Part shown: in pieces, positions 5,501 to 33,467 of the stretch
Position numbering within the stretch: the stretch's first letter is position 1
Layout of the letters: each line of letters begins with the position of its first letter
NCBI GenBank assembly: GCA_017984215.1
Contig: JAGOAA010000017.1
Location: 1 to 44,513, forward strand
Length of the DNA: 44,513 nt
Direction: 5' to 3'
From: Cytophagaceae bacterium
Lineage (GTDB): Bacteria; Bacteroidota; Bacteroidia; Cytophagales; Spirosomataceae
Notes under the pieces: model-generated
The model's input: the letters and a program-made list of their open reading frames with translations, nothing else
Database searches by the model: none
What the model was told of the DNA's origin: nothing
Position numbers and translations under genes: made by a program

Positions 5501-5893
5501 ATTTTTACTCGAAATCAATCCGTTGAGTGTATTCGATGCCACAATGTAGGAGGAGATGGAGGTGTTGTAGGTCCATCTTTAAAGGGCATTGGCAGTCGCT
5601 TGACACGTGAGCAAATCTTACAAGCCTTAATTGAGCCCAGTGCTCGAATAGCACCCGGTTACGGCATGATTTCTTTGGTGTTAACCGATGGTCAGGAAGT
5701 GACGGGGACCGTTATTCAGGAAACAGAAAATGAAATTCAATTGAAGACGAGTGAGGCAGAACCCTTACGTATCGCGACCGCACGGATCAAATCACGTGAA
5801 AACTATCCATCGAGCATGCCACCGATGGGTTCAATGATGAGTAAACGAGAGATTCGGGATGTGGTGGAATATTTAACTTCGCTGAAAAAGTAA
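2510..5893 (+). CDS. Heme-binding lipoprotein: beta-propeller, HEAT repeats, c-type cytochrome
   Basis: A 1127-residue exported lipoprotein with the lipobox LAIGC (Cys19). Residues about 50-480 resemble the sorbosone-dehydrogenase/PVC beta-propeller, with two calcium-loop-like stretches (DLNGDGVHDWHD and DKNGDGYADQG). Residues about 500-960 are alpha-helical HEAT-like repeats, and about 985-1127 a c-type cytochrome with a CIRCH heme site at 1007-1011 and a possible axial Met in PPMGSMM near the end. This layout matches the PVC-type heme-binding proteins known from planctomycetes and from Bacteroidota; they are thought to be periplasmic or surface dehydrogenases acting on sugars or polysaccharides, but the substrate is unknown. 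It lies 11 bases behind the TonB receptor. The leader motif AAACCTAT (2504-2511) overlaps the ATG. Family call strong, reaction inferred. Confidence 0.88.
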   Translation: MKQKILLAAGLLQLLAIGCTSSQEKTTYQVIFEDQDQIAERAQAAKEKLPIKITPGMAITRWASDSLAPDPVAIDIDDQGAVYLNSTNRGKVSEFDIRGHRDWMTESIGFKTVEDRKAFLHKTFAPENSEKNAWLPDLNGDGVHDWHDLTIEKEEIWKLEDKNGDGYADQGTRILNQFNQEVTDVAGGLLVRKKDAFVAIGPDLWRLDNTNKKGLWTNAKSIATGFAVHIGFGGHGMSSVIEGPDGKIYWQIGDIGANITTVDGRNLPNPNSGVLVRSNPDGTDFEIVAYGIRNTHEFAFDHYGNIISSDNDGDHQGESERLVHIVEGADIGWRSNWQYGKYTDPKNNLYKVWMDEKLYLPRWEGQAAYIIPPIRNYHNGPTGMVFNPGTALGKKWQNKFFLVEFVGNANNSHIWAFDLKPKGASFDFNSEVDVVSGILPTGIRFGPEGALYAADWVNGWDAKNFGRVWKLDVTAETNDLAVERKKTKELIQMDYSKAPVNQLGELLYYGDMRVRQKAQFELVARGESTILNQAISQKDNQLARVHGIWGIGQLARTKPALHESLMPLIQDADLEIQAQAIKVLGDNKYSSAAGAIIPRLTSTSARVQFFAAQALGRMGAEQAVNPLLDLINQNQDQDVYLRHAAVLALSRIGRVEPISALASSSNRSLRIAAVLVLRRLKNPAVAQFLQDSDEYIVTEAARAIHDDESIPEALPALAQTLAVSKWTNEALIRRAINACLRVGTAKEIDLLVAYIQRQDIPDALRAEGIATLGTWGNPSVLDRVDGRHRGPLDRKSSDVVAKVAGIIPIFLKSKNPEVLIATGTLISELGIQDVKSEQTQLFLNHPSQKVRASQLSSLIALKDQNLPLLLTKGIEDIDRNVRAMALGSLDKIVLSKNQLPGIINPIFEKGSVPEQQQLLQSIAKMPAENTQDVLADLIARMVDNKLPAGIKLDLMEAVEATKSDMLVAKLDALKTKGTLTDEYKDALYGGNIQNGNLIFTRNQSVECIRCHNVGGDGGVVGPSLKGIGSRLTREQILQALIEPSARIAPGYGMISLVLTDGQEVTGTVIQETENEIQLKTSEAEPLRIATARIKSRENYPSSMPPMGSMMSKREIRDVVEYLTSLKK

Positions 5894-5895
5894 GT

Positions 5896-5976
5896 GAGAA
5901 TGAGTGATGAGTGAAGAGTGAAGAGTTGTTTTAATTGACATTTTCACTCTAAACTCTTCACTCTTAACTCTTACTT
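5896..5976. repeat. Heptamer array A in inverted arrangement
   Basis: The forward copy GAGTGAA/GAGTTAA lies at about 5896-5927 and the reverse copy at about 5945-5974. The two arms include a perfect 13-base pair (5915-5927 with 5952-5964), so the transcript could fold into a large hairpin between the heme-lipoprotein gene and the DAB operon. It may act as a terminator, but no uridine run follows it. Confidence 0.75.
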
Positions 5977-5984
5977 ATTTTAGC

Positions 5985-5992
5985 TATATTTG
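5985..5992 (+). promoter_or_regulatory. Bacteroidota -7 element (TATATTTG) of the DAB operon
   Basis: TATATTTG matches the Bacteroidota -7 consensus TAnnTTTG. Only four bases separate it from the ATG at 5997, so transcription would begin at or next to the start codon and the message would be nearly leaderless. I see no clear TTTG at the -33 distance; that stretch is occupied by the heptamer array. Confidence 0.55.
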
Positions 5993-5996
5993 TATC

Positions 5997-10794: not shown

Positions 10795-12381
10795 ATGAAA
10801 AATAAAAATAAAGTACCTCAAGATGGCTTCGCGGGCCTAAAAGAAAATTTCGCGAGTGATGCAATCTCTGGATTCATCGTATTTTTATTGGCACTACCCT
10901 TAAGTTTAGGTATCGCCAAAGCCTCGGATTTTCCACCCATTATGGGATTAATTACAGCCATTATTGGCGGTATGATTGTCAGTTTTTTTGCCGGATCTCG
11001 ATTAACTATCAAAGGCCCAGCGGCGGGTTTAATTGTTATTGTAGCCGGAGCCGTTACCGAATTTGGTGGTGGAGAAACCGGTTGGCATTTAGCCCTTGGT
11101 GCGATGGTCGTTGCCGGAATTGTACAAGTCCTTTTCGGTGTGTTCAAACTTGGAAAGTTGATGGATTTCTTTCCATTGTCTGCCGTACATGGCATGTTGG
11201 CTGCCATCGGATTAATCATTATCGGTAAGCAAATTCCCGTATTATTGGATGTAAATCCTGCCTTATCCAAAGGAAAAGAACCCTTGGAATTATTTGCTTC
11301 GATTCCTGAATTTATTGCGAATTGGGACCCAAAAGCTACATTAATTGGTGTGATTAGTTTAGCGATTATGATGGGTTGGCCCTACATTAAGAATAATTTC
11401 ATCAAAAAAATTCCGGCACCTTTGGTGGTTTTAGCCATAGCTATTCCGGCAGAATTGTTCATGGATTTCCAAACGACAGAGCCGAAATATGCCTTGGTGC
11501 ACATTGGAAACCTTATGGATAACATTAACATCAATGCAAGTTTTGCAGGTTTTGCTCAAACAGGGACTTTCATCAAGTTTGTCATCATGTTTGCCTTAGT
11601 GGGATCATTAGAATCACTCTTAACAGTCAAGGCAATGGATATGTTGGATCCTTTTAAGCGTAAATCGAATGCCAACAAAGATTTAATCGCCACGGGAATT
11701 GGGAATACTTTTGTAGCATTTTTAGGCGGATTACCGATGATTTCAGAAGTAGCACGTTCATCAGCTAATATCGCGAATGGCGGAAAAACCCGATGGGCTA
11801 ATTTCTTTCACGGATTTTTCATCTTGATTTTTGTATTGTTGGCCTCACATTTAATTGAGCTAATTCCTAATACAGCATTAGCAGCCATGTTAATTACGGT
11901 TGGAATCAAATTAACTCATCCCAAAGAATTCATACATACCTTGGAAATCGGGAAAGAGCAATTATTGATTTTCATCGTAACAATATTATTTACGCTAGGA
12001 GTTGATTTATTGGTGGGTATTGGAGCTGGTATTTTAACGGAAATATTGGTCAATCTATTTAATGGCAAACCCATCAGCGCCATTTTCAAAGCGCCTACGG
12101 AGGTTTCATTCACAGATGATGCTTATTTGGTCGAAATTTCGGATGCAGCCGTATTCACGAACTACTTGGGAATCAAACGTAAATTAGAAGCAATCCCCGC
12201 GAGTTTCCTGGTAACGATTGATCTTTCGAAAACGCATTTGGTTGATCATTCTGTCATGGAAAACTTGGAACATTTTAAACACGATTATGAACGAGAGGGT
12301 GGAACCGTGAATATAATCGGCTTAGACGCCCATAGACCCGTTTCAAGCCATAGGGCATCGGCACAAAAGAAAGTAAAATAG
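10795..12381 (+). CDS. SulP family anion transporter, probable bicarbonate transporter, with short STAS domain
   Basis: A 528-residue polytopic membrane protein. The SulP core covers residues about 15-410, starting with GFIVFLLALPLSLGIAKAS and containing GSRLTIKGPAAGL, and a short C-terminal STAS-like domain (about 440-515, with FLVTIDLSKTHLVDHSVME). SulP proteins move sulfate, bicarbonate or other anions; cyanobacterial BicA is a sodium-dependent bicarbonate member. Its place as third gene behind dabA and dabB argues for bicarbonate here, but the substrate is an inference from context. A terminator follows at 12413-12444, closing the operon. Confidence 0.88.
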   Translation: MKNKNKVPQDGFAGLKENFASDAISGFIVFLLALPLSLGIAKASDFPPIMGLITAIIGGMIVSFFAGSRLTIKGPAAGLIVIVAGAVTEFGGGETGWHLALGAMVVAGIVQVLFGVFKLGKLMDFFPLSAVHGMLAAIGLIIIGKQIPVLLDVNPALSKGKEPLELFASIPEFIANWDPKATLIGVISLAIMMGWPYIKNNFIKKIPAPLVVLAIAIPAELFMDFQTTEPKYALVHIGNLMDNININASFAGFAQTGTFIKFVIMFALVGSLESLLTVKAMDMLDPFKRKSNANKDLIATGIGNTFVAFLGGLPMISEVARSSANIANGGKTRWANFFHGFFILIFVLLASHLIELIPNTALAAMLITVGIKLTHPKEFIHTLEIGKEQLLIFIVTILFTLGVDLLVGIGAGILTEILVNLFNGKPISAIFKAPTEVSFTDDAYLVEISDAAVFTNYLGIKRKLEAIPASFLVTIDLSKTHLVDHSVMENLEHFKHDYEREGGTVNIIGLDAHRPVSSHRASAQKKVK

Positions 12382-12446: not shown

Positions 12447-12523
12447 GACGGTAGACATTGGGCGTTGGACATTGGACGATGGACATTGGACGTTGGACAA
12501 TGGACAATGGAGGATGGACATTG
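12447..12523. repeat. Heptamer array C (GGACATT/GGACGTT type)
   Basis: About eleven imperfect copies of a 7-bp unit close to GGACATT, with variants GGACGTT, GGACGAT and GGACAAT. It is the first part of a 425-base stretch without a gene between the SulP and GH30 genes, which also holds a hairpin and arrays A and B. Confidence 0.85.
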
Positions 12524-12533
12524 TACTAAGTAG

Positions 12534-12553
12534 AGACGCGATACTTCGCGTCT
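12534..12553. repeat. REP-like hairpin AGACGCGA-TCGCGTCT
   Basis: Perfect 8-bp arms AGACGCGA and TCGCGTCT around a four-base loop. The same arms recur at 21732-21751 and a degenerate relative lies at about 21578-21596, so it is a dispersed palindromic element, not a unique terminator. Confidence 0.8.
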
Positions 12554-12574
12554 TACTAGGAAATAGCTAATAGT

Positions 12575-12619
12575 GCGGAGTGAAGAGTGAAGAGTTAAGA
12601 GTGAAGAGTGAAAAAGTAA
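12575..12619. repeat. Heptamer array A (GAGTGAA/GAGTTAA type)
   Basis: Five or six head-to-tail copies of a 7-bp unit alternating AGAGTGA and AGAGTTA. The same unit occurs at about 5896, 14182, 18790, 21510 and 33430. Confidence 0.85.
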
Positions 12620-12642
12620 GAAAACCTCAAGACTTCACAACA

Positions 12643-12726
12643 GAGACTAGTGACTAGAGACTAGTGACTAAAGACTAGTGACTAAAGACTAGTGACTAGA
12701 GACTAGAGACTAGAGACTAGCGACTA
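12643..12726. repeat. Heptamer array B (GACTAGN type)
   Basis: About twelve copies of GACTAG followed by A, T or C, with a few A-for-G changes (GACTAAA). It ends about 80 bases before the GH30 start and lies just upstream of that gene's likely promoter. Confidence 0.87.
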
Positions 12727-12806
12727 TATTATCGACTTAATTTTGAATGCCCTAAGCGACATTTTGATTTTTTTTGAATATATTGAAGACAATTTAAACC
12801 TATTCC

Positions 12807-14183
12807 ATGAAACGATTTACTTGGCTCTTCACCCTTGCCATCGTTCTTAGTTATTCCTCAGGTTTCGGACAGATTTGGATGTCCCGAGCTGCGAGCCAAC
12901 AAATGTTGCAGGAACAAGCATTACCAGCCGTTTCAAGTGGAAATTTGGGGATTCAAATTAACCCCAAAATACAATTTCAAACAATTGATGGCTTTGGTTA
13001 CACGCTGACGGGTGGTAGTTCTCAACTCATTTTGGCATTAGCTCCAGACCAACAAAAAGCCTTATTATCTGAACTGTTTGGTACTTCGAAAAATAGCATT
13101 GGTATATCCGTTTTACGTATTGCCGTTGGCGCCAGTGATTTAGATGCGAACACATTCTCCTACGACGATATCCCAGCAGGTCAAAAAGACGAAAAGCTCG
13201 AACATTTTTCCCTCAAAGCATCTGAAAAAGATTTGATTCCTATGATGCAGGCGATTAAATTAATTAATCCAAGCATTAAATTCATGGCGACTCCATGGTC
13301 TCCACCCGCATGGATGAAGGACAACCAAGCCTCCAAGGGCGGTTCGCTTTTACCTCAATATTATGGCGTCTATGCACAATATTTGGTAAAATACTTGAAA
13401 TCCATGGAAGCGTTAGGTCTGCCTTTTGAATATTTGACACCCCAAAATGAGCCCTTGCATCCAGGTAATAATCCGAGTTTATTGATGTTGGCCTCCCAAC
13501 AAAATGAATTCATTAAAAATTACTTGGGACCGGCATTCAAGAATGCAGGATTAACAACTAAAATCCTGGCTTATGATCATAATTGTGACAAACCGGAATA
13601 TCCGATTGAAATCTTAAATGATCCCATTACACGAAAATATGTGGCGGGGTCTGCCTTCCATTTGTACAATGGAGATATTTCGGCATTGAGCGTTGTACGG
13701 AAGGCACATCCCGACAAAGATGTATATTTCACGGAACAATGGACAGGAGCAAAGGGTGAGTTTGCCGGAGATTTCAATTGGCATATCAAAAACGTCATCA
13801 TCGGATCGTTGGTAAACGATGCCAAAACAGCATTAGAATGGAATTTGGCGAACGACCCGCAATGGGGGCCACATACGCCGGGAGGTTGCACGGAATGCAA
13901 AGGAGCCATTACGATTCAAGCGGATGGTGCACTTATACGTAACCAAGCCTATTACATTGTAGCACAAGCCTCCAAGTTTATTCCGACGGGATCGATTCGG
14001 ATTGCTTTAACCAATCTACCCAAAGGAATGATAGGCGTTGCAGTTCTTCGTCCCGACAAACAAATCGCCGTTCTTTTACAAAACGAAACGCAAGAAACCA
14101 TTAAAACCGCTATTTCATTATCGGGTAAACAATGGGAGCTTGAAATTCCGAAGGAAGGAGTGGTAAGCATACTTTTGAATTAA
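12807..14183 (+). CDS. Exported glycoside hydrolase family 30 (glucosylceramidase-like)
   Basis: A 458-residue secreted or periplasmic glycosidase. After a signal peptide (residues 1-21, ending SSGFG), the GH30 TIM barrel shows IDGFGYTLTGGSS, the ATPWSPPAWMKDN stretch, TPQNEP with the proposed acid/base Glu215, and VYFTEQWTG with the proposed nucleophile Glu310. A short beta domain closes the protein, as in other GH30 members. Family activities include beta-glucosidase, glucosylceramidase and beta-1,6-glucanase; the exact substrate is not readable. The leader motif AAACCTAT (12796-12803) stands four bases before the ATG. Repeat arrays lie on both sides, so it appears to be a single-gene unit. 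Confidence 0.9.
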   Translation: MKRFTWLFTLAIVLSYSSGFGQIWMSRAASQQMLQEQALPAVSSGNLGIQINPKIQFQTIDGFGYTLTGGSSQLILALAPDQQKALLSELFGTSKNSIGISVLRIAVGASDLDANTFSYDDIPAGQKDEKLEHFSLKASEKDLIPMMQAIKLINPSIKFMATPWSPPAWMKDNQASKGGSLLPQYYGVYAQYLVKYLKSMEALGLPFEYLTPQNEPLHPGNNPSLLMLASQQNEFIKNYLGPAFKNAGLTTKILAYDHNCDKPEYPIEILNDPITRKYVAGSAFHLYNGDISALSVVRKAHPDKDVYFTEQWTGAKGEFAGDFNWHIKNVIIGSLVNDAKTALEWNLANDPQWGPHTPGGCTECKGAITIQADGALIRNQAYYIVAQASKFIPTGSIRIALTNLPKGMIGVAVLRPDKQIAVLLQNETQETIKTAISLSGKQWELEIPKEGVVSILLN

Positions 14184-14257
14184 GAGTTAAGAGTTAAGAG
14201 TGAAAAAGACGTTTGACATTAGACGTTGGACATTAGACGTTGGACATTAGATGTTGA
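14182..14257. repeat. Heptamer arrays A and C behind the GH30 gene
   Basis: A short A array (AGAGTTA, AGAGTGA; 14182-14207) begins immediately after the GH30 stop codon and is followed by a C array (GACATTA, GACGTTG; 14208-14257) with the variant ATTAGAC in place of ATTGGAC. Confidence 0.82.
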
Positions 14258-14340
14258 ATTTAACAATGATATAAAAAAGCGAAACTTCGATTCTGCCCTA
14301 AGGCGAAAGCAATGAGTAATAAAAAAAACGATTTAACTTA

Positions 14341-14456
14341 GACTAGAGACTAGCGACTAGCTACTAGCTACTAGTGACTAGAGACTAGTGACTTGAGACT
14401 AGCGACTAGTGACTAGAGACTAGCGACTAGCGACTGGTGACTAGTGACTAGCGACT
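14341..14456. repeat. Heptamer array B upstream of the Gfo/Idh gene
   Basis: About sixteen copies of GACTAG plus one variable base, with an irregular CTACTAG part in the first third. It ends 24 bases before the ATG of the next gene, so any promoter must lie inside or overlap the array. Confidence 0.87.
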
Positions 14457-14480
14457 GAAACCTGACAACTGTATTAACCT

Positions 14481-15848
14481 ATGAAAACATTCAACATCAA
14501 CCGCCGGCATTTCTTGAAAGGAGCGTCAGCAAGTTTGGCATTATCATCATTTGGGGCCTATGGACTTGACTTAGTTAATCCAGCGAAACCTTTACGCGTC
14601 GGATTAATCGGTGCGGGATGGTATGGAAAAAGTGATTTATTCCGACTCATGCAAGTGGCACCCGTCGACGTGGTAGCCCTTTGTGATCCGGATCGGAACA
14701 TGTTGACAGAAGCGGGTAAGTTGGTTGCTGCCCGACAAATATCCCGTAAAACACCTCGATTATATGGGGATTACCAAAAGCTTTTGGCAGAAAACGCTTT
14801 GGATATCGTCTTAATCGGCAGTCCTGATCATTGGCATCCTTTGCAAATGATCGATGCGGTGAAAGCAGGTGCTCATGTTTATGTACAAAAACCGATTTCG
14901 GTTGATGTATTAGAAGGTGAAGCGATGGTTGCGGCCGCTCGAAAATATGGAAAAACGGTACAAGTGGGTACCCAACGGAAATCAACGCCACACATCATTG
15001 ATGCCAAAAACAAGATCGTAGATTCGGGTTTATTAGGTAAAATCGCACACGTGGAAATGTATTGTTATTACCACATGCGCAATAATGGAAATCCTCCGGT
15101 TCAAGCCGTTCCTGAATTCTTTGATTATGAAACCTGGACAGGTCCTGCACCTTTGCGTCCCTATGACGGATTACCCCATACGCGCTGGTGGAGAACGTTT
15201 AATGAATACGGAAATGGCATCATGGGCGATATGTGTGTGCACATGTTCGATACAGCTCGTTGGTTACTTGGTTTAGGTTGGCCTAAACGCATTTCTTCAG
15301 AAGGAGGCATCTACGTACAAAAGGAAGGAAAATCGAATATCGCTGATACCCAAACGGCCGTATTTGAATATGATGGCTTGAATTGTGTTTGGCAACATCG
15401 TACCTGGGGAACGCCACCAGATCCGGAATATCCTTGGGGATTGACGATTTATGGCGAAAAAGGTACCTTACGCTTAAGTACCATGCAATATGATTTTACG
15501 CCTGTTGACCCAAAAGGCCAAAAAATCCATGGATCATGTCTATTTGAAAGAGAAAAATACCCGGAAGATCTAACGGAAGATCGCATCGAATTGAATGCTG
15601 CTCCGGCAACCCGTTTGCATATGTTGGATTTCTTAGCGGCGATCGATAAAGGAACGAAACCAGTTGCCGACATTCAGGAAGGACATATTTCGACAGCATC
15701 TTGTATTTTAGCCAATGTTTCGATGAAATTAGGCAGACCGCTTTCGTATGATCCCAATACAAAAACAGTTTTAAATGATCCCGAGGCAACTACCTTATTA
15801 GCAAGAACATACCGCCAACCCTGGTCAAGAAACGGATTAAACGCATGA
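14481..15848 (+). CDS. Exported Gfo/Idh/MocA family oxidoreductase
   Basis: A 455-residue NAD(P)-dependent oxidoreductase with a Tat-type signal (NRRHFLKGASASLAL, residues 7-21). The Rossmann fold starts with RVGLIGAGWYGK (GxGxxG), and VYVQKPISV corresponds to the family's conserved EKP segment with Gln for Glu. A C-terminal alpha/beta domain contains the GDMCVHMFDTARW substrate-site segment. Exported members of this family occur in Bacteroidota carbohydrate clusters and oxidise or reduce sugar derivatives; the substrate is unknown. The leader motif TAACCTAT (14475-14482) overlaps the ATG. The stop overlaps the next start by four bases (ATGA), so the two genes are translationally coupled. Confidence 0.9.
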   Translation: MKTFNINRRHFLKGASASLALSSFGAYGLDLVNPAKPLRVGLIGAGWYGKSDLFRLMQVAPVDVVALCDPDRNMLTEAGKLVAARQISRKTPRLYGDYQKLLAENALDIVLIGSPDHWHPLQMIDAVKAGAHVYVQKPISVDVLEGEAMVAAARKYGKTVQVGTQRKSTPHIIDAKNKIVDSGLLGKIAHVEMYCYYHMRNNGNPPVQAVPEFFDYETWTGPAPLRPYDGLPHTRWWRTFNEYGNGIMGDMCVHMFDTARWLLGLGWPKRISSEGGIYVQKEGKSNIADTQTAVFEYDGLNCVWQHRTWGTPPDPEYPWGLTIYGEKGTLRLSTMQYDFTPVDPKGQKIHGSCLFEREKYPEDLTEDRIELNAAPATRLHMLDFLAAIDKGTKPVADIQEGHISTASCILANVSMKLGRPLSYDPNTKTVLNDPEATTLLARTYRQPWSRNGLNA

Positions 15849-18298
15849 AAAAACTAATTCTCGCTTGTTTATTAACCCCATGCTTTGCATTTGCGCAAAA
15901 TGGGCTTCAGTTACTGGAGAACCTAAAACGCATTGAATCTACAGGAACTGTATTGCATGTCGCAGCACATCCGGATGATGAAAGCACGCATATGTTGGCC
16001 TGGTTCGCCCAAGAACAACATTGGGAAACCAATTACTTTGCATTCACACGCGGAGATGGGGGACAAAACCTCATCGGCGATGAACAAGGAATTCCCCTAG
16101 GACTTATTCGTACCCAGGAATTATTGGCTGCGCGTAGAATTGATGGTGCAAATCAATACTTTTCACAGGCATTTGATTTTGGATTTTCAAAGTCGACCGA
16201 CGAGGCTTTAAGCTTTTGGAACAAAGAATTAGTCCTATCAAATTTGGTTTATGTCATTCGTAAACTACGCCCTGATATCATATTTACCCGTTTTCCACCG
16301 GATGCACGCGCTGGACATGGGCATCATTCAGCTTCCGCTGCCTTAGCGATTGAGGCATATCAAGCTGCGGCAGATCCCAAGCGCTTCCCTGAGCAGTTGA
16401 AAGGGGATATCAAACCTTGGAAAGCGACGCGTTTATTGTGGAATACGTTTCGCTTTGCTGGGACATCAACCGTTTCGGAAGATCAATTCAAAGTACAAAT
16501 TGGGAATTTCTTGCCAAGCATCGGGCAGAGTACGGCTGAATTAGCGGCATTGAGCAGGAGCCAACATAAATCACAGGGTTTTGGTTTTGCAGTGGATCAT
16601 GGTAAATCGACGGAATATTTCCAGACTTTGGCAGGAATTGCACCTAAAAAATCCATTGATGAAGGGGTGTCAAATCATTGGCAAAACAGTCGAGCAGGTG
16701 CAGAAATAGAACGCATGATTTCATTGGTCATCCGAAATTACCAAGCTGAAAAGCCCTATTTGAGTATCCCTGACATGATTCAGGTTCGTCGGGCAATCAA
16801 CAAATTAGACGACACCTATTTGCAATCGAAGAAAATCAAGCAAATTGATGCTTGGATTACGCAAGCCGCTGGGATTCATTTTGCTGGTAATACGAATCGA
16901 GGAACCGTAGCTCAAGGCGATCCATTGAACATTAAAACAGAATTCATCGTACGCAGTCCGATTCACGTAGGTTCACTGCGTATTACAGTTGGCGAGAAAG
17001 ACACCATATTCAAAAATCAAGTCATTCCCTACGAACGCATGAATTGGACGTCAAATCAGATTGTTCGTCAAACGATTACCCAGCCATATTGGTTGGCAAA
17101 TACCAAAGAAACCGGCCATTTCGTCGTGAAAGATCAGACAAAAATCGGTCAAGCGGCACCCGATCCGGCTATTTTGGTATACGCCCAATTTACGATTGAA
17201 GGTGAACAAATTCAGGTAAGCAGACCCGTGCAAGAACTTGTCGTTGATCCGGTGAAGGGGGAATATTTCCAACCGATGACAGTTACCCCTCGAAGCACCT
17301 TCCAGATCAATCATCCGAATATTTTATTGCCTAAAGGCTCCGGAGCTACCAAATCCGTAGACGTGAGCATTAAAGCGATGGGAAGAATTGGTGCTGGAAT
17401 CGTTAAACTCTTGAATCAGGCTGATCAAACGTTGGCAACGCTCGAAATTCCCAACGGAATAGATGCGGGAGCATCGAAAACAATGGTATTCAATGTGCGT
17501 GAAAAAGACCAAAATTTTGAAGGAAAAGAGCCTTGGTATTTGCGTTTGGCTTATGAAACTACCCAAGGAAACTGGGTAGATTCCTTGCAAATGGAAAGCA
17601 TCAATTACAGTCATATTCCTGTTCAACGTTATTTTTCACCTGTTTCAGTCAATCTGATGCATGTTGATTTTAAGAAAACGGGTAAACGCATTGGCTACAT
17701 AAAAGGAGCGGGGGATAAGGTACCTGAGAGTTTGGAACAAATGGGTTATCAGGTAGATTTCTTACATGAGGCCGACTTGAAAGCGAGTTATTTGGCACAA
17801 TATGATGTGGTACTAACGGGCGTTCGTGCGCACAATACTTTGGACTATTTAGGACAAGCACATTCGGAATTGATGAAATACGTTGAGCAAGGCGGCAATT
17901 ATGTGGTTCAATACAATACGGCTAGTTTTGTGGGACCCTTAAAAGTAGCTGTGGGGCCTTATCCGTTAACGATTTCGCGTAATCGGATTACGAAAGAAGA
18001 AGCTGCGCCAAAATTCTTATTGGATCATGCCTTATTTCATTCCCCGAATGAAATAACAGAACGTGATTTTGATGACTGGATTCAAGAGCGCAGCATCTAT
18101 TTAGGAGAGTCATCGGATCCGCATTATCAATTTCCACTAGCATTTACGGATCCCGGAGAAGCGGAACAAAAAGGAAACATTGCGGTATGTAGATATGGCA
18201 AAGGCCAATTCATCTACACGGGATTAGTTTTCTTCCGCGAATTGCCCGCGGGGGTACCGGGAGCGTGGCGATTGATGGCTAATCTTATCAGTCGCTAG
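15845..18298 (+). CDS. Exported PIG-L family deacetylase with C-terminal amidotransferase-like domain
   Basis: An 817-residue secreted protein. Residues 1-18 are a signal peptide; residues about 36-300 are a PIG-L (LmbE) N-deacetylase with the zinc motif AHPDDE at 41-46 and GHGHH near 157-161. The middle (about 350-590) is beta-rich and the last part (about 600-815) resembles a ThuA/glutamine-amidotransferase-like fold (RIGYIKGAGDKVPESLEQMG, YDVVLTGVRAHNT). PIG-L enzymes remove N-acetyl groups from sugars. It overlaps the oxidoreductase gene by four bases, so both likely act on the same amino-sugar-type compound; this is inference. The final Ser-Arg and stop codon are read from the first units of a CTAGTCG repeat. 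Confidence 0.88.
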   Translation: MKKLILACLLTPCFAFAQNGLQLLENLKRIESTGTVLHVAAHPDDESTHMLAWFAQEQHWETNYFAFTRGDGGQNLIGDEQGIPLGLIRTQELLAARRIDGANQYFSQAFDFGFSKSTDEALSFWNKELVLSNLVYVIRKLRPDIIFTRFPPDARAGHGHHSASAALAIEAYQAAADPKRFPEQLKGDIKPWKATRLLWNTFRFAGTSTVSEDQFKVQIGNFLPSIGQSTAELAALSRSQHKSQGFGFAVDHGKSTEYFQTLAGIAPKKSIDEGVSNHWQNSRAGAEIERMISLVIRNYQAEKPYLSIPDMIQVRRAINKLDDTYLQSKKIKQIDAWITQAAGIHFAGNTNRGTVAQGDPLNIKTEFIVRSPIHVGSLRITVGEKDTIFKNQVIPYERMNWTSNQIVRQTITQPYWLANTKETGHFVVKDQTKIGQAAPDPAILVYAQFTIEGEQIQVSRPVQELVVDPVKGEYFQPMTVTPRSTFQINHPNILLPKGSGATKSVDVSIKAMGRIGAGIVKLLNQADQTLATLEIPNGIDAGASKTMVFNVREKDQNFEGKEPWYLRLAYETTQGNWVDSLQMESINYSHIPVQRYFSPVSVNLMHVDFKKTGKRIGYIKGAGDKVPESLEQMGYQVDFLHEADLKASYLAQYDVVLTGVRAHNTLDYLGQAHSELMKYVEQGGNYVVQYNTASFVGPLKVAVGPYPLTISRNRITKEEAAPKFLLDHALFHSPNEITERDFDDWIQERSIYLGESSDPHYQFPLAFTDPGEAEQKGNIAVCRYGKGQFIYTGLVFFRELPAGVPGAWRLMANLISR

Positions 18299-18338
18299 TC
18301 GCTAGTCACTAGTCTTTAGAGGCGCGAGACTTCGCTTT
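18289..18338. repeat. Heptamer array B (reverse) plus degenerate REP-like hairpin
   Basis: CTAGTCG, CTAGTCG, CTAGTCA, CTAGTCT run from inside the end of the PIG-L gene to about 18317; this is array B read on the other strand. A degenerate relative of the AGACGCGA hairpin follows (GGCGCGAGACTTCGC, about 18320-18335). Confidence 0.75.
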
Positions 18339-18342
18339 TATT

Positions 18343-18399
18343 CCCAGGGCTGAGGCCTGGGGTTATAAATATTTCAAAACCCCAGACTTTAGTCTGGGG
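18343..18399. repeat. Two adjacent CCCCAGG/CCCCAGA hairpins
   Basis: CCCAGG...CCTGGG at 18343-18361 and the perfect palindrome-like CCCCAGACT-TT-AGTCTGGGG at 18380-18399. They share the CCCAG end sequence and look like two variants of one dispersed palindromic element. They may also terminate the preceding operon, although only short A/T stretches follow. They lie 16 bases before the A/B-barrel gene. Confidence 0.7.
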
Positions 18400-18414
18400 A
18401 TAAACAAAAAAGAT

Positions 18415-18705
18415 ATGTTACATCACAGTGTATTTTTAAAATTCAAGTCGGAAACTTCGAGTGAAGAGCAGGCTTATTTCATCGCTGAATCTAGAAAACT
18501 AGCTCAAATTCCAGGCGTTATGAATCTACAGGTATTGGAGGAATTCAATGCGACTAATCCTTACACGCATGGCTTAGGCATGGATTTTGAAGATCAGGCT
18601 GCTTATGATGTATACTCGAATCATCCTATTCATAATCGCTTCGTTCAGGAGGTTTGGTTGCCACGGGTGGAAAAATGGCAGGAGATAGACTTTAGAGAGA
18701 TTTGA
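18415..18705 (+). CDS. Stress-responsive A/B-barrel (Dabb) domain protein
   Basis: A 96-residue cytoplasmic protein with the Dabb fold: LHHSVFLKFK at the N-terminus, a central helix, and YDVYSNHPIHNRFVQEVWLP near the C-terminus, all typical of this dimeric ferredoxin-like family. The biochemical role of most members is unknown. The name is unrelated to the DAB carbon pump. It appears to be a single-gene unit, with hairpins upstream and heptamer arrays directly after its TGA stop. The start at ATG 18415 gives the usual family length. Confidence 0.82.
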   Translation: MLHHSVFLKFKSETSSEEQAYFIAESRKLAQIPGVMNLQVLEEFNATNPYTHGLGMDFEDQAAYDVYSNHPIHNRFVQEVWLPRVEKWQEIDFREI

Positions 18706-18906
18706 GGTAAGAGGTAGGAGGTAAGAGGTAAGAGGTGAGGTGAGGTGAGGAGTGGCATTAATACTAATTTAAACAAAGACTAGCGACTAAAGAGTTAAGA
18801 GTGAAAAGTTAAGAATGAAGAGTGAAGAGTTAAGAGTGAAGAGTGATAAGGTTAAAAATAATTACAATTTAAACTAAGACTAGCGACTAGTGACTAGCGA
18901 CTATAT
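18704..18906. repeat. Mixed heptamer arrays D, B, A, B
   Basis: GGTAAGA units (D, about 18704-18735) decay into a GGTGA run, followed by a short B array (18778-18790), a long A array (AGAGTTA/AGAGTGA, 18790-18847) and another B array (18879-18906). The last B unit ends two bases before the matB ATG. This fills the whole gap between the Dabb and matB genes, so the malonate operon's promoter must lie within it. Confidence 0.87.
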
Positions 18907-18908
18907 AC

Positions 18909-20363
18909 ATGATTCAAATTTTTCAAAAATCCCTTCCATACGCGGACAAAACAGCCATTATTTCGGAAGGACAAGCATATTCATTCGCGGAATTACATCA
19001 AGCTTCGGCCAATTTTGCTCAACTACTATTGGATGAATCGGCCGATTTAGCTGAAGGGCGAGTAGCCTTTATGGTCAATCCAGGATTCGATTATGTACGT
19101 GTGCAGTGGGGTATTTGGCAAGCGGGCGGAATTGTGGTTCCACTCTGTTTAAGTTATCCATTGCCATCGCTACGCTATACAATTGAGAATTCCGGTGCAT
19201 CTGTTATTGTTGTTTCGCCAGAATTTGAAGGGATGCTTTCGGATTTAGCAAACGAGTTGAATTGTCGGTTCATCGTTTTGGGAAAAAACGAAATAGCGAA
19301 GCATTCGAAAAAGCTACCCGAAGTGAACGATGCGCGCGGAGCCATGATTTTGTATACAAGCGGCACAACAAATTTGCCCAAAGGCGTTGTAAGTACGCAT
19401 GCCAATTTGAATGCACAAATTTCTTCCCTCATCGAAGCCTGGAATTGGACATCAAGCGACGCTACGGTTTGTGTGTTACCCTTACATCATGTTCACGGAG
19501 TTGTTAATGTCGTTTCCTGCGCATTATGGGCAGGAGCTAGCTGTGCATTTATGCCTAATTTCAGTGAAAATGAAATTTTTGGCTTAATCGAAAATCAAAA
19601 GATTAACGTCTTCATGGCGGTGCCAACGATCTATTTCAAGTTGATTACTTATTGGGAGGGACTAGCTAAAGATCAACAGCAGGAGCTTACGGATGCTTTG
19701 GCAAAACTCCGCCTAATGATATCGGGATCTGCGGCATTGCCCGTTTCAGTCATGGAACGCTGGAAGACCATATCAACCCATTTACTTCTGGAGCGTTATG
19801 GCATGACGGAAATCGGGATGGCTTTGAGTAATCCCTACGATGGTCCGCGGGTTGCGGGTCATGTGGGATATCCCTTGCCAGGCGTTTCGGCAAGGTTATC
19901 CGAAGAAGGTGAAATACAAATCAAGGGTAAAACGGTCTTTAAGGAATATTGGAACAAACCCGAATCAACGGCAGAATCATTCACAGAAGATGGATGGTTT
20001 AAGACAGGTGATATCGCGGCGATTGACGAAATAGGCGGCTATCGTATTCTGGGACGTAATTCGGTTGATATCATTAAATCAGGCGGTTACAAAATTTCCG
20101 CTTTGGAAATCGAAGAAGTATTACGCCAATATCCGGGAATCGCAGATTGTTCAGTGGTAGGTTTACCTAATGACGAATGGGGTGAACTCGTGGCAGCAGC
20201 CATTGTAATCAAAGCTGAAGTGGATCAAAAAGCCTTAAATACATGGATGCGCGAGCAAATGCCGGCATACAAAACACCACGAAAATATACGGTATTACCT
20301 GAATTACCCCGTAATGCGATGGGGAAAGTCACCAAAAAAGATGTCGTTAATTTAATTCAATAA
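18909..20363 (+). CDS. matB: Malonyl-CoA synthetase (acyl-CoA synthetase, AMP-forming)
   Basis: A 484-residue cytoplasmic enzyme of the ANL superfamily that joins malonate and CoA using ATP. Motifs in order: the phosphate-binding loop YTSGTTNLPKGV near 147-159, LPLHHVHGVVNV, ERYGMTEIGMALSNPYDGPR near 294-311 (the SNPYDG part is characteristic of MatB and ACSF3), WFKTGDIA, GYKIS, and the adenylation lysine in NAMGKVTKK near the C-terminus. The next two genes encode the malonate transporter MadLM, which supports malonate rather than another short acid. A spacing of one base to madL indicates one operon. It was chosen over a generic fatty-acid ligase on motif and context. Confidence 0.9.
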   Translation: MIQIFQKSLPYADKTAIISEGQAYSFAELHQASANFAQLLLDESADLAEGRVAFMVNPGFDYVRVQWGIWQAGGIVVPLCLSYPLPSLRYTIENSGASVIVVSPEFEGMLSDLANELNCRFIVLGKNEIAKHSKKLPEVNDARGAMILYTSGTTNLPKGVVSTHANLNAQISSLIEAWNWTSSDATVCVLPLHHVHGVVNVVSCALWAGASCAFMPNFSENEIFGLIENQKINVFMAVPTIYFKLITYWEGLAKDQQQELTDALAKLRLMISGSAALPVSVMERWKTISTHLLLERYGMTEIGMALSNPYDGPRVAGHVGYPLPGVSARLSEEGEIQIKGKTVFKEYWNKPESTAESFTEDGWFKTGDIAAIDEIGGYRILGRNSVDIIKSGGYKISALEIEEVLRQYPGIADCSVVGLPNDEWGELVAAAIVIKAEVDQKALNTWMREQMPAYKTPRKYTVLPELPRNAMGKVTKKDVVNLIQ

Positions 20364-20722: not shown

Positions 20723-21481
20723 ATGGAATACATTATCGAATTATTGGATAAGAATGGGTTGATCATGGCGTTTTTGGTTACAGGAATCCTCGTGTATTTT
20801 TCAGAAGGGATATCGGTGCGCTTGACCAATAAAAAACTACCCGGTTCCGCCATTGCCATCTTTTTGGGATTGGTCATTGCCTACATTGGAGGTGTTTTAA
20901 CGGATGGGAAAAGCGGTATTGCTGATATTCCGGGCTTAAGCGGTTTCAAAGTCATGGGCGGACCGATGTTTCGCGATTTCGCGATCGTTTCCACGGCGAT
21001 GGGAGCGAGCTTTGCCGTCATTAAGAAGACAGGCTCGGTAGGTATATTATCCTTGTTTCTAGGCGTTATCTTCTCATTTGTGGCAGGCGTAGGTATCGCA
21101 TATGCGATGGGAATTCACGATGCAGCAAGTTTGGCTACGATCGGAGCAGGTGCTTGTACCTTTGTTGTGGGCCCTGTAACTGGAACAGCTGTGGGTGCGA
21201 GTTCGGATATAATCGCCATCAGCATTGCAGCTGGAGTCGTGAAATCCATCTTAGTAACCATCGGTACACCGTTCATCGCGCCTTACATTGGTTTGAATAA
21301 CCCCAAATCTGCCATGATTTTTGGGGGTTTGATGGGAACCACGAGTGGAACGGCGGCGGGTTTAGCAGCAACTGACCCTAAATTAGTGCCTTACGGTGCT
21401 ATGACAGCTACATTCTACACAGGATTGGGGTGTCTGATGTGTCCTTCGGTGTTGTATTTTGCACTGAAAGCAATATTGTAG
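20723..21481 (+). CDS. madM: Malonate transporter subunit MadM
   Basis: A 252-residue membrane protein with about eight hydrophobic segments and glycine-rich loops (VGPVTGTAVGASSDI, GGLMGTTSGTAAGLAATDP) typical of MadM. I chose ATG 20723 (MEYIIELLDKNGL) over an upstream ATG at 20669, because the longer form would run back into madL by 53 bases and add residues not seen in the family. It completes a malonate uptake and activation operon. No malonyl-CoA decarboxylase is visible in the window. A C-type heptamer array starts at its stop codon. Confidence 0.9.
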   Translation: MEYIIELLDKNGLIMAFLVTGILVYFSEGISVRLTNKKLPGSAIAIFLGLVIAYIGGVLTDGKSGIADIPGLSGFKVMGGPMFRDFAIVSTAMGASFAVIKKTGSVGILSLFLGVIFSFVAGVGIAYAMGIHDAASLATIGAGACTFVVGPVTGTAVGASSDIIAISIAAGVVKSILVTIGTPFIAPYIGLNNPKSAMIFGGLMGTTSGTAAGLAATDPKLVPYGAMTATFYTGLGCLMCPSVLYFALKAIL

Positions 21482-21620
21482 ACATTAGACGTTGGACGTT
21501 GGAGGTAAGAACTAAGAGTGAAGAGTGAAGAGTGAAGAGTTAAGAGTGAAGAGTGAAGAGGTAAGAAAAAGTTACTGGAGAGACGCGAAACGTCACGACA
21601 AGTAGACATTAGACGTTAAA
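21481..21620. repeat. Heptamer arrays C, D/A, degenerate hairpin, C
   Basis: GACATTA/GACGTTG units (21481-21506), then a long A array with D-type edges (about 21506-21566), then a degenerate AGACGCGA hairpin (about 21578-21596), then two more C units (21601-21616). It begins at the madM stop codon. Confidence 0.83.
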
Positions 21621-33394: not shown

Positions 33395-33467
33395 AAGAGG
33401 TAAGAGGTAAGAGATAAGAGGTAAGAGGGAAGAGTGAAGAGTGAAGAGTGAAGAGGTAAGAAGTAAT
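33395..33467. repeat. Heptamer arrays D and A
   Basis: Four GGTAAGA-type units followed by three AGAGTGA units and a final GGTAAGA. It occupies the middle of the 288-base gap between the TIM-barrel gene and the HTH-like gene, the only copy east of 22 kb in the window. Confidence 0.83.

Follow-up and report, generated by a model that had tools for sequence, protein, structure and literature searches.

Why should several differently worded tandem repeats in the gene spacers of one bacterium share a period of seven bases, and why should many of them begin on a stop codon? The question is raised by the window, the whole 44,513-nucleotide stretch analysed here (positions 1 to 44,513, forward strand, of contig JAGOAA010000017.1, assembly GCA_017984215.1), which comes from a Cytophagaceae bacterium of the Bacteroidota and whose spacers hold head-to-tail heptamer arrays of three families, A/D, B and C. 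What is constant in these arrays is the 7-bp period, whereas the word varies. For A/D and C, array starts coincide with stop codons, the units running outward from the gene, in more cases than chance placement would give. B arrays have their ends close to the following gene instead, an excess over chance that holds for start codons and not for stop codons alone. The arrays are taken here to be heptanucleotide long simple-sequence repeats, in which slippage by multiples of seven, spreading of words between loci and anchoring at stops would act together, an account whose chances of being right and wrong we judge to be evenly balanced.

A seven-base period with several words

The array scan used here covers periods of 2-40 and calls arrays at a score of at least 14, or at least 12 where they are grouped into families. 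Within the window it returns 12 arrays, 11 at period 7, one at period 14 and none at any other period; likewise, of 35 rows from Tandem Repeats Finder (kept at a score of at least 30), all 15 scoring at least 60 have a period of 7, 14, 21 or 28. An earlier sequence-only reading of the window had proposed that differing units share one 7-bp period, and this is borne out at every site it named (5.90-5.97, 12.45-12.73, 14.18-14.46, 18.29-18.31, 18.70-18.90, 21.48-21.56 and 33.40-33.47 kb), with the one small departure of GAGGT, repeated 3.8 times at period 5 at 18732-18750. The genome, labelled G000, is a draft of 2,432,368 bases in 70 contigs with a completeness of 86.6%, the window being contig C32 there, and a draft of this kind might invite an explanation by chance or faulty assembly. 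That explanation is refuted in practice, as ten Markov shuffles of the window contain no arrays, the family patterns read backwards have no matches in G000, and independent genomes hold arrays in the same spacers.

The same period prevails in a sample of about a quarter of G000 (641,815 bp), composed of the window, nine stretches with matches to the B pattern and 31 unselected stretches. Here, 39 arrays have a period that is a multiple of seven (7k) and 11 have other periods. By our own open reading frame (ORF) calls, 38 of the 39 are non-coding, and all 38 non-coding arrays with a period below 24 are 7-based; other periods are thus not equally common. Of the 11 exceptions, six lie in coding frames (periods 9, 18, 24, 24, 33 and 39), and the remaining five are non-coding with periods of 31-39 bp, at least four of them being adjacent copies of the GAGACGCGA palindrome. 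Nor are the arrays unique to the window, as the genome-wide counts, taken as overlapping pattern matches, are 36 for B, 45 for A/D and 124 for C. Their density is uneven across G000, with 12 arrays in the 44.5 kb of the window, 20 in the 132 kb of B-match stretches and 7 in the 465 kb of unselected stretches (27 of the 31 have none), which makes the window a hot spot.

Among relatives, drawn chiefly from a set of 38 genomes of the genus, the period outlives a change of word. Non-coding arrays of period below 24 are 7-based in 15/16 cases in G020 and 3/3 in G024, and the 7-based count in G012 is 23/24. G020, another species, holds 17 period-7k arrays in 400 kb, with the words TTTGAAC/TTTGCTC, ATTCACC, TATGCTT-like and AGTCGGG beside GACTAGN; G012 holds 24 in 394,502 bp and G024 three in 100 kb. 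No period-7 arrays occur in the sampled stretches of G018 and G010, or in 322,515 bp from four other genera; Sandaracinomonas does have them. The G005 sample, only 12,928 bp and entirely covered by ORF calls, is uninformative on period. Class-wide, three GAGTKAA copies are found in 9 of 395 genomes (G000 included) and the backwards pattern in 20 of 395, so the step is common and the word not special, and A was discarded as a privileged word at that level. In one distant genome a period-8 array (AGTTAGAA) lies next to a TAACTGA array (locus L284, about 1365-1430), and the seven-base rule is therefore not absolute outside the genus.

All 49 arrays of the G000 sample scoring at least 12 fit one of three patterns at 80% or more: A/D as GAGKNAA (GAG[GT][GTA]AA; 20 arrays, 102 units), B as GACTAGN (17 arrays, 107 units) and C as RGACNTT (12 arrays, 85 units). 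Of the four unrelated families of the sequence-only reading, the differing units stand and the count does not, as A and D are one variable family. "Unrelated" fails as well, because A, C and D words switch without leaving the 7-bp phase: a plus-strand array at 21479..21560, beginning inside a TAG stop codon, passes from C through D to A, and another at 33395..33466 (plus strand), which lies more than 100 nt from both flanking genes and is an exception to anchoring, passes from D to A and back to D. Units vary mostly at fixed positions (4-5 in A, 1 and 5 in C, 7 in B), and rare variants are present at most positions. ACT in B units (107/107), the A at position 2 of A units (102/102) and, in C units, a G at position 2 together with a T at position 7 (85/85) are all invariant, a result favoured by the use of patterns to phase and class the units. 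Unit identity is 0.78-0.85 between loci and 0.81-0.89 within a locus, and neighbouring C units are less alike (0.810) than C units of the same array overall (0.864), a sign of alternation.

A/D and C arrays often start at stop codons

Of 31 A and C arrays with both neighbours known, 20 lie in sense at a stop codon, none in antisense and one at a start codon. Random placement within the same spacers puts a mean of 2.5 at a sense stop, with a maximum of 8 in 2000 draws, and a second null gives 2.8, with a maximum of 10 in 5000 draws. In the convergent spacers of G000 (104-488 bp), 10 of 11 arrays start within 12 nt of the stop despite room elsewhere. The stop codon is often itself the first unit, as TAG followed by ACGTT in C, and TAA followed by GAG, TGA followed by GGTAAGAG or TAG followed by AGGTAAG in A/D. 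The B arrays are placed differently: of 16, 11 finish no more than 25 nt short of the following gene, where the null is 3.9 and 0.0006 of draws do as well; seven of these finish that close to a start codon, where the null is 1.8 and 0.0002 of 5000 draws do as well; and one of the 16 starts at a sense stop. The earlier claim that arrays begin at or near stops thus stands for A/D and C and fails for B, the C array at 12.45 kb also lying well off its stop. In G012, three of four B arrays are forward and just upstream of a start codon, and 10 of 13 arrays in convergent spacers, some only 46-66 bp long, are at a sense stop. Consensus promoters and terminators are not above shuffles.

In the window itself, an A array (GAGTGAA) at 5900..5926 on the plus strand lies in sense, 6 nt past the stop of a gene ending at 5893, and a reverse-complement A array occupies 5943..5973 on the minus strand. 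Downstream of the sulfate permease gene (10795-12381; this and the following genes are named from Pfam), a plus-strand C array (GGACATT/GGACGTT, 12454..12520) begins 72 nt past the stop, preceded by a hairpin and T-tract that was read by eye and that the terminator scan did not list. The strandless GTAGAGACGCGATACTTCGCGTCTTAC palindrome, a dispersed repeat (12530..12556), comes next, and then, both on the plus strand, an A array (GAGTGAA/GAGTTAA, 12578..12612) and a B array (GACTAGN, 12642..12726), with the start of the GH30 gene (12807-14183) 80 nt downstream. The GH30 stop codon is the first TAA of a further plus-strand A array (14180..14201), behind which a plus-strand C array (14207..14256) alternates AGACGTT with GGACATT at period 14, and a plus-strand B array (14340..14456) ends 24 nt upstream of the ATG of the GFO/IDH/MocA gene (14481-15848). 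The PIG-L gene (15845-18298) has its TAG stop codon inside a reverse-complement B array (TAGTCGC, 18290..18314, minus strand). Finally, the TGA stop of the 96-aa Dabb gene (18415-18705) contains the beginning of a plus-strand D array (GAGGTAA, 18704..18736), and A (GAGTTAA/GAGTGAA, 18790..18846) and B (18878..18903) arrays follow on the same strand, the latter ending 5 nt upstream of the ATG of the AMP-binding enzyme gene (18909-20363).

Gene order is largely conserved across the genus, so these spacers can be compared between species. The spacer between GH30 and GFO is 0-10 bp long in the 15 genomes where the two genes were found adjacent with no array in between (G005, G015, G002, G018, G021, G016, G024, G007, G023, G008, G030, G013, G033, G020 and Sandaracinomonas), several of which hold arrays elsewhere. 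It is 86-321 bp long in G000, G035, G031, G006, G003 and G012 (approximate in G012, where the GH30 alignment ends early), and called arrays fill about 36-87% of it; in G003, two arrays make up about four fifths of 86 bp. Between Dabb and the AMP-binding gene, five of the six genomes compared have an array at the stop codon, with differing words (GAGGTAA in G000, GAGTTAA/GAATTAA in G011 and G031, GAGGTGA in G006 and GAGAGTA in G003), and G037 has related sequence below the array threshold. After the PIG-L stop, G006, G037, G031 and G003 have C arrays, G011 has a brief run resembling C, and G000 has the reversed B array. The unit count at one locus also differs between species. As a separate observation, Sandaracinomonas limnophila carries a (GTTAATG)n array directly after the sulfate-permease stop (L034, 3888-3973), in the spacer that holds C, A and B in G000.

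Copy number adds to this picture. With the caveat that imperfect units can split chains, the 21 chains of at least two A units in G000 include eight of 5, five of 4 and one of 2; C peaks at 4 (9 chains in G000 and 11 in G012, which also has 4 dimers), and the most frequent length of B is 3 units (8 chains), 5 of its chains being dimers. The heptamers of Xanthomonas, too, favour four units according to the available part of Rehm 2015 (PMC4692102). The modes of 4-5 units in A and C, together with the orientation and exact position of the arrays, could indicate selected untranslated-region elements of about 28-35 nt, stepped by 7 nt and set right after the stop (A, C) or before the start (B). Such an array might be a site that a protein recognises on RNA or DNA in a single orientation, or might be an unstructured linker that keeps a hairpin apart from the terminating ribosome. 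The position-specific conservation within units would agree with this, allowing for the phasing and classing by pattern that favour it, as would the same word in the same place in the distant genome G393. One orthologous spacer, however, is too short to hold an array in 15 relatives, the words at one locus differ between species, most unit positions show rare variants and B has its mode at 3 units, so this explanation is possible but somewhat unlikely.

The evidence from distant genomes is as follows. Of 24 A arrays in G393, which belongs to a distant genus, 16 lie in sense within 20 nt of a stop, one in antisense and seven elsewhere, a raw count without a null from loci chosen by the A pattern, where 16 further repeat rows are unclassed. 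At seven loci of other distant genomes, four of eight A arrays are in sense at a stop, two of them sharing flanks and possibly representing one duplicated locus. Arrays of TAACTGA at eight distant loci are found three times in antisense at a stop, twice in sense at a start, once in antisense at a start and twice elsewhere. It is conceivable, though we consider it unlikely, that a strand-aware process across distant Bacteroidota lays or keeps blocks of about 4-5 heptamers on stops with one class of word and against starts with another, the word being free and the step, polarity and place fixed. Should the anchoring at stops have a function, it would amount to a signal for gene ends in bacteria that was not found described in the literature searched.

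How arrays would be made, spread and kept

In the account preferred here, arrays would lengthen, shorten and switch words in place through strand misalignment in 7n steps, and such misalignment would give one period, several words, higher-order units of 14, 21 and 28 bp and in-phase passage from word to word. Doublets outside arrays are consistent with a step of this kind: in G000 they number 11, 11 and 4 at 7, 14 and 21 bp (2.0, 1.6 and 1.6 expected), and in the array-poor G018, G010 and G024 together 7, 4 and 5 (about one expected at each). Some of the short doublets may be decayed arrays. Slippage over a 7-nt polymerase footprint was proposed by Mrazek 2007, as quoted in the available parts of PMC4679880 and PMC4692102. 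The seven-base slippage step suggested by the sequence-only reading fits the doublets, but slippage does not explain the sharing of words among unlinked loci or the anchoring at stop codons; the former would need a second process and the latter a third. Slippage products might also have piled up as debris after a clade-wide loss of mismatch repair, in keeping with an abundance confined to the clade. MutS is said to ignore loops of more than about 4 nt, which would favour units longer than 4. MutS domain II is nevertheless found in 33 of the 38 genus genomes, among them five of the eight that bear C, with G000 (an 899-aa frame) one of the five, and debris would not select stop codons and orientation, which makes such a loss a very improbable source.

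An existing word would reach other loci by short-homology copying, in which a match of a few bases, for instance the stop triplet, primes template switching or conversion. This is suggested because unlinked arrays share words and A and B heptamers that stand alone, away from arrays, show no clear enrichment (13 A where 13.4 are expected; 10 B where 6.2 ± 2.5 are expected). Single C heptamers are slightly raised (47 against 34.2 ± 6.4), and 14 of the 47 lie within 25 nt past a sense stop. A functional single heptamer as the seed of the arrays was accordingly rejected, with A and B monomers near background and C slightly raised. Recent block copying between loci was rejected too: shared words of 2-4 units show no clear excess over permuted arrays, so that such copying is invisible here.

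A dedicated factor would offer another route, either telomerase-like templated synthesis with a 7-nt step or a mobile element aimed at gene ends. A and C occur mostly in blocks of at least four units with little monomer background (again, 47 against 34.2 for C), and the families are limited to part of the genus (C in 8/38 genomes, A/D in 11/38 and B in 14/38, with B in 0/61 sampled outside it), both of which would suit such a factor. However, Y1 transposases (PF01797) match 12 of the 38 genus genomes (10 above the cut-off) and neither G000 nor any of the eight C-bearing genomes, drafts that are 71-89% complete and in which absence is no proof; reverse transcriptase (PF00078) is present in five of 38 and only one of the eight C-bearing drafts, with the same incompleteness; and array junctions, judged by eye, have no conserved flanks. 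A dedicated factor is thus improbable. REP-associated tyrosine transposase (RAYT) and its repetitive extragenic palindromic (REP) elements were set aside on the same absence of Y1 transposase from these incomplete drafts, within which neither RAYT/Y1 transposase, reverse transcriptase nor loss of MutS tracks the arrays as a maker. CRISPR arrays were dismissed as well, since the units here are 7 bp without spacers, whereas CRISPR repeats measure about 20-40 bp and are separated by unique spacers.

Arrays at gene ends would be retained once made, since the stop comes from their first unit and the protein stays nearly unaltered. In antisense, A/D arrays are mostly free of stop triplets and would make proteins longer, so selection could filter for the sense polarity; filtering by itself does not bring arrays onto the stop codon where a long spacer is free.

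Several results weigh against the combined account of slippage, spreading and anchoring. The doublets of G020 are not in excess at 7 bp (1 against 0.6), although they are at 14 and 21, and 15-bp doublets are raised as well in G000 (9 against 1.6). Insertions or deletions of 7 bp were not observed occurring, loci having been compared between species only. Growth from monomers should leave many dimers, and A and C instead peak at 4-5 units; multi-unit words shared between loci are not in excess over permuted arrays. With regard to placement, 11 of the 31 A and C arrays lie away from a stop, the four B arrays within 25 nt of a stop are within chance (null 2.1), and the stop bias of G012 is weaker, at 12 sense and 4 antisense against a null of 5.5 and 5.5, even if 12 or more in sense at a stop are reached in only 0.0004 of draws. 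TAACTGA arrays also adjoin convergent stops, even though no stop triplet occurs in their reverse complement, so that provision of the stop by the array is not the whole story.

Known heptamers, palindromes and hairpins

Heptanucleotide simple-sequence repeats have been reported from cyanobacteria, Xanthomonas, Beggiatoaceae and some Bacteroidetes (available parts of PMC4679880 and PMC4692102), and the G000 arrays belong with them, having a period of 7 above chance and a mostly intergenic location. The preference of bacterial tandem repeats for seven bases is itself an open remark in the quoted text of Mrazek 2007, whose repeats likewise include over-represented 7-nt units in many words; as quoted there, they show no stop anchoring or polarity, and the genomes named are from other phyla. 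The GGGNATC repeats of Xanthomonas and the GGGGA(C/T)T repeats of Nostoc are, in the part of Rehm 2015 available (PMC4692102), one studied word per genome able to form guanine quadruplexes (G4), as opposed to three non-G4 words in G000. The G000 consensus words contain no run of three G, although variants such as GAGGGAA (3/102 A units) have one. The placement of the Xanthomonas and Nostoc repeats downstream of an ORF on the coding strand is shared by A and C; the start of A and C within a few bases of the stop sets these apart from what that text describes.

Closer parallels are provided by the TAACTGA repeats of Beggiatoaceae, Cyanobacteria and five Bacteroidetes (MacGregor 2015, PMC4679880, in its available part), a heptamer often found forward just upstream of starts, as B is, and accompanied in Bacteroidetes by several heptamers per spacer, as here. 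That system is described there as one word, mainly at starts in Beggiatoaceae, whereas A and C words here are at stops too. According to the same source, several heptamers lie next to one another in Gramella, Aequorivita and Elizabethkingia, and the earlier suggestion that such families are peculiar for a Bacteroidota chromosome is therefore lost. Three exact copies of TAACTGA have no match in G000, and near variants occur in sister species: arrays of ACT plus four variable bases (ACTGATT, ACTGACA, ACTAGCG) reach near the GFO start at L161 (G006), L163 (G003) and L178 (G012), of which ACTGACA and ACTGATT are one to two bases from TAACTGA. These ACT-type arrays link B to the Beggiatoaceae word. 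The tandem heptanucleotides of Calothrix PCC 7601 reportedly go by the name STRR. Three different ones occur in that one genome, as here (cited in the available part of PMC4692102). A tree-of-life survey of short tandem repeats (STRs), in the portion available (PMC12699852), finds a subset of STRs with 6-9-bp units enriched in prokaryotic phyla and a high STR density in Bacteroidota, and gives no heptamer-specific placement.

Heptamer repeats are thus already known, and it is the tight gene-end anchoring with several words per genome that looks new; the literature searched, which covered few subscription papers, yielded no description of Bacteroidota in which heptamer arrays begin at stop codons. 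The genus offers numerous species with a shared gene order, some sisters rich and others poor in arrays, more than one word in a genome and an exact anchor at the stop, a natural experiment that would let the setting of the step, the spreading of words and the fixing of place be separated.

Secondary structure accompanies some of the arrays. The two A arrays within 5890-5996 pair as an RNA hairpin of -39.1 kcal/mol (z -6.2), and three of five window spacers fold better than shuffles, two of those with palindromes. RNA hairpins as a general purpose were rejected, because the other two spacers show no folding advantage over shuffles (z -0.3 and +0.6). Inverted pairs of same-family arrays that share a spacer and could fold into long hairpins are seen at 5900-5973 of the window, at L064 (7121-7342) and at L076 (4523-4663), and also in G012 (L232, L236) and G020 (L123); in Xanthomonas, 70-75 inverted heptamer-array pairs are reported in the available part of Rehm 2015 (PMC4692102). 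The palindrome GTAGAGACGCGATA..TCGCGTCTCTAC is dispersed in spacers, at 12530-12556 of the window and at L070, L076, L091 and L102. It has 29 paired copies in the 641,815 bp of G000, one in the 394,502 bp of G012 and none in the stretches of G020, G018 and G010, and a Y1 transposase able to move it was not found in the G000 draft.

The GH30 gene has Sandaracinomonas limnophila (Bacteroidota, Cytophagales) as its nearest species-named relative, at 56% identity, and is closer to three Cytophagaceae metagenome-assembled genomes (80-83%). Lastly, a REP-like inverted repeat, CCCCAG..CTGGGG, lies at 18343-18400 of the window, and the corresponding spacer of G011, G006 and G003 contains similar inverted repeats.

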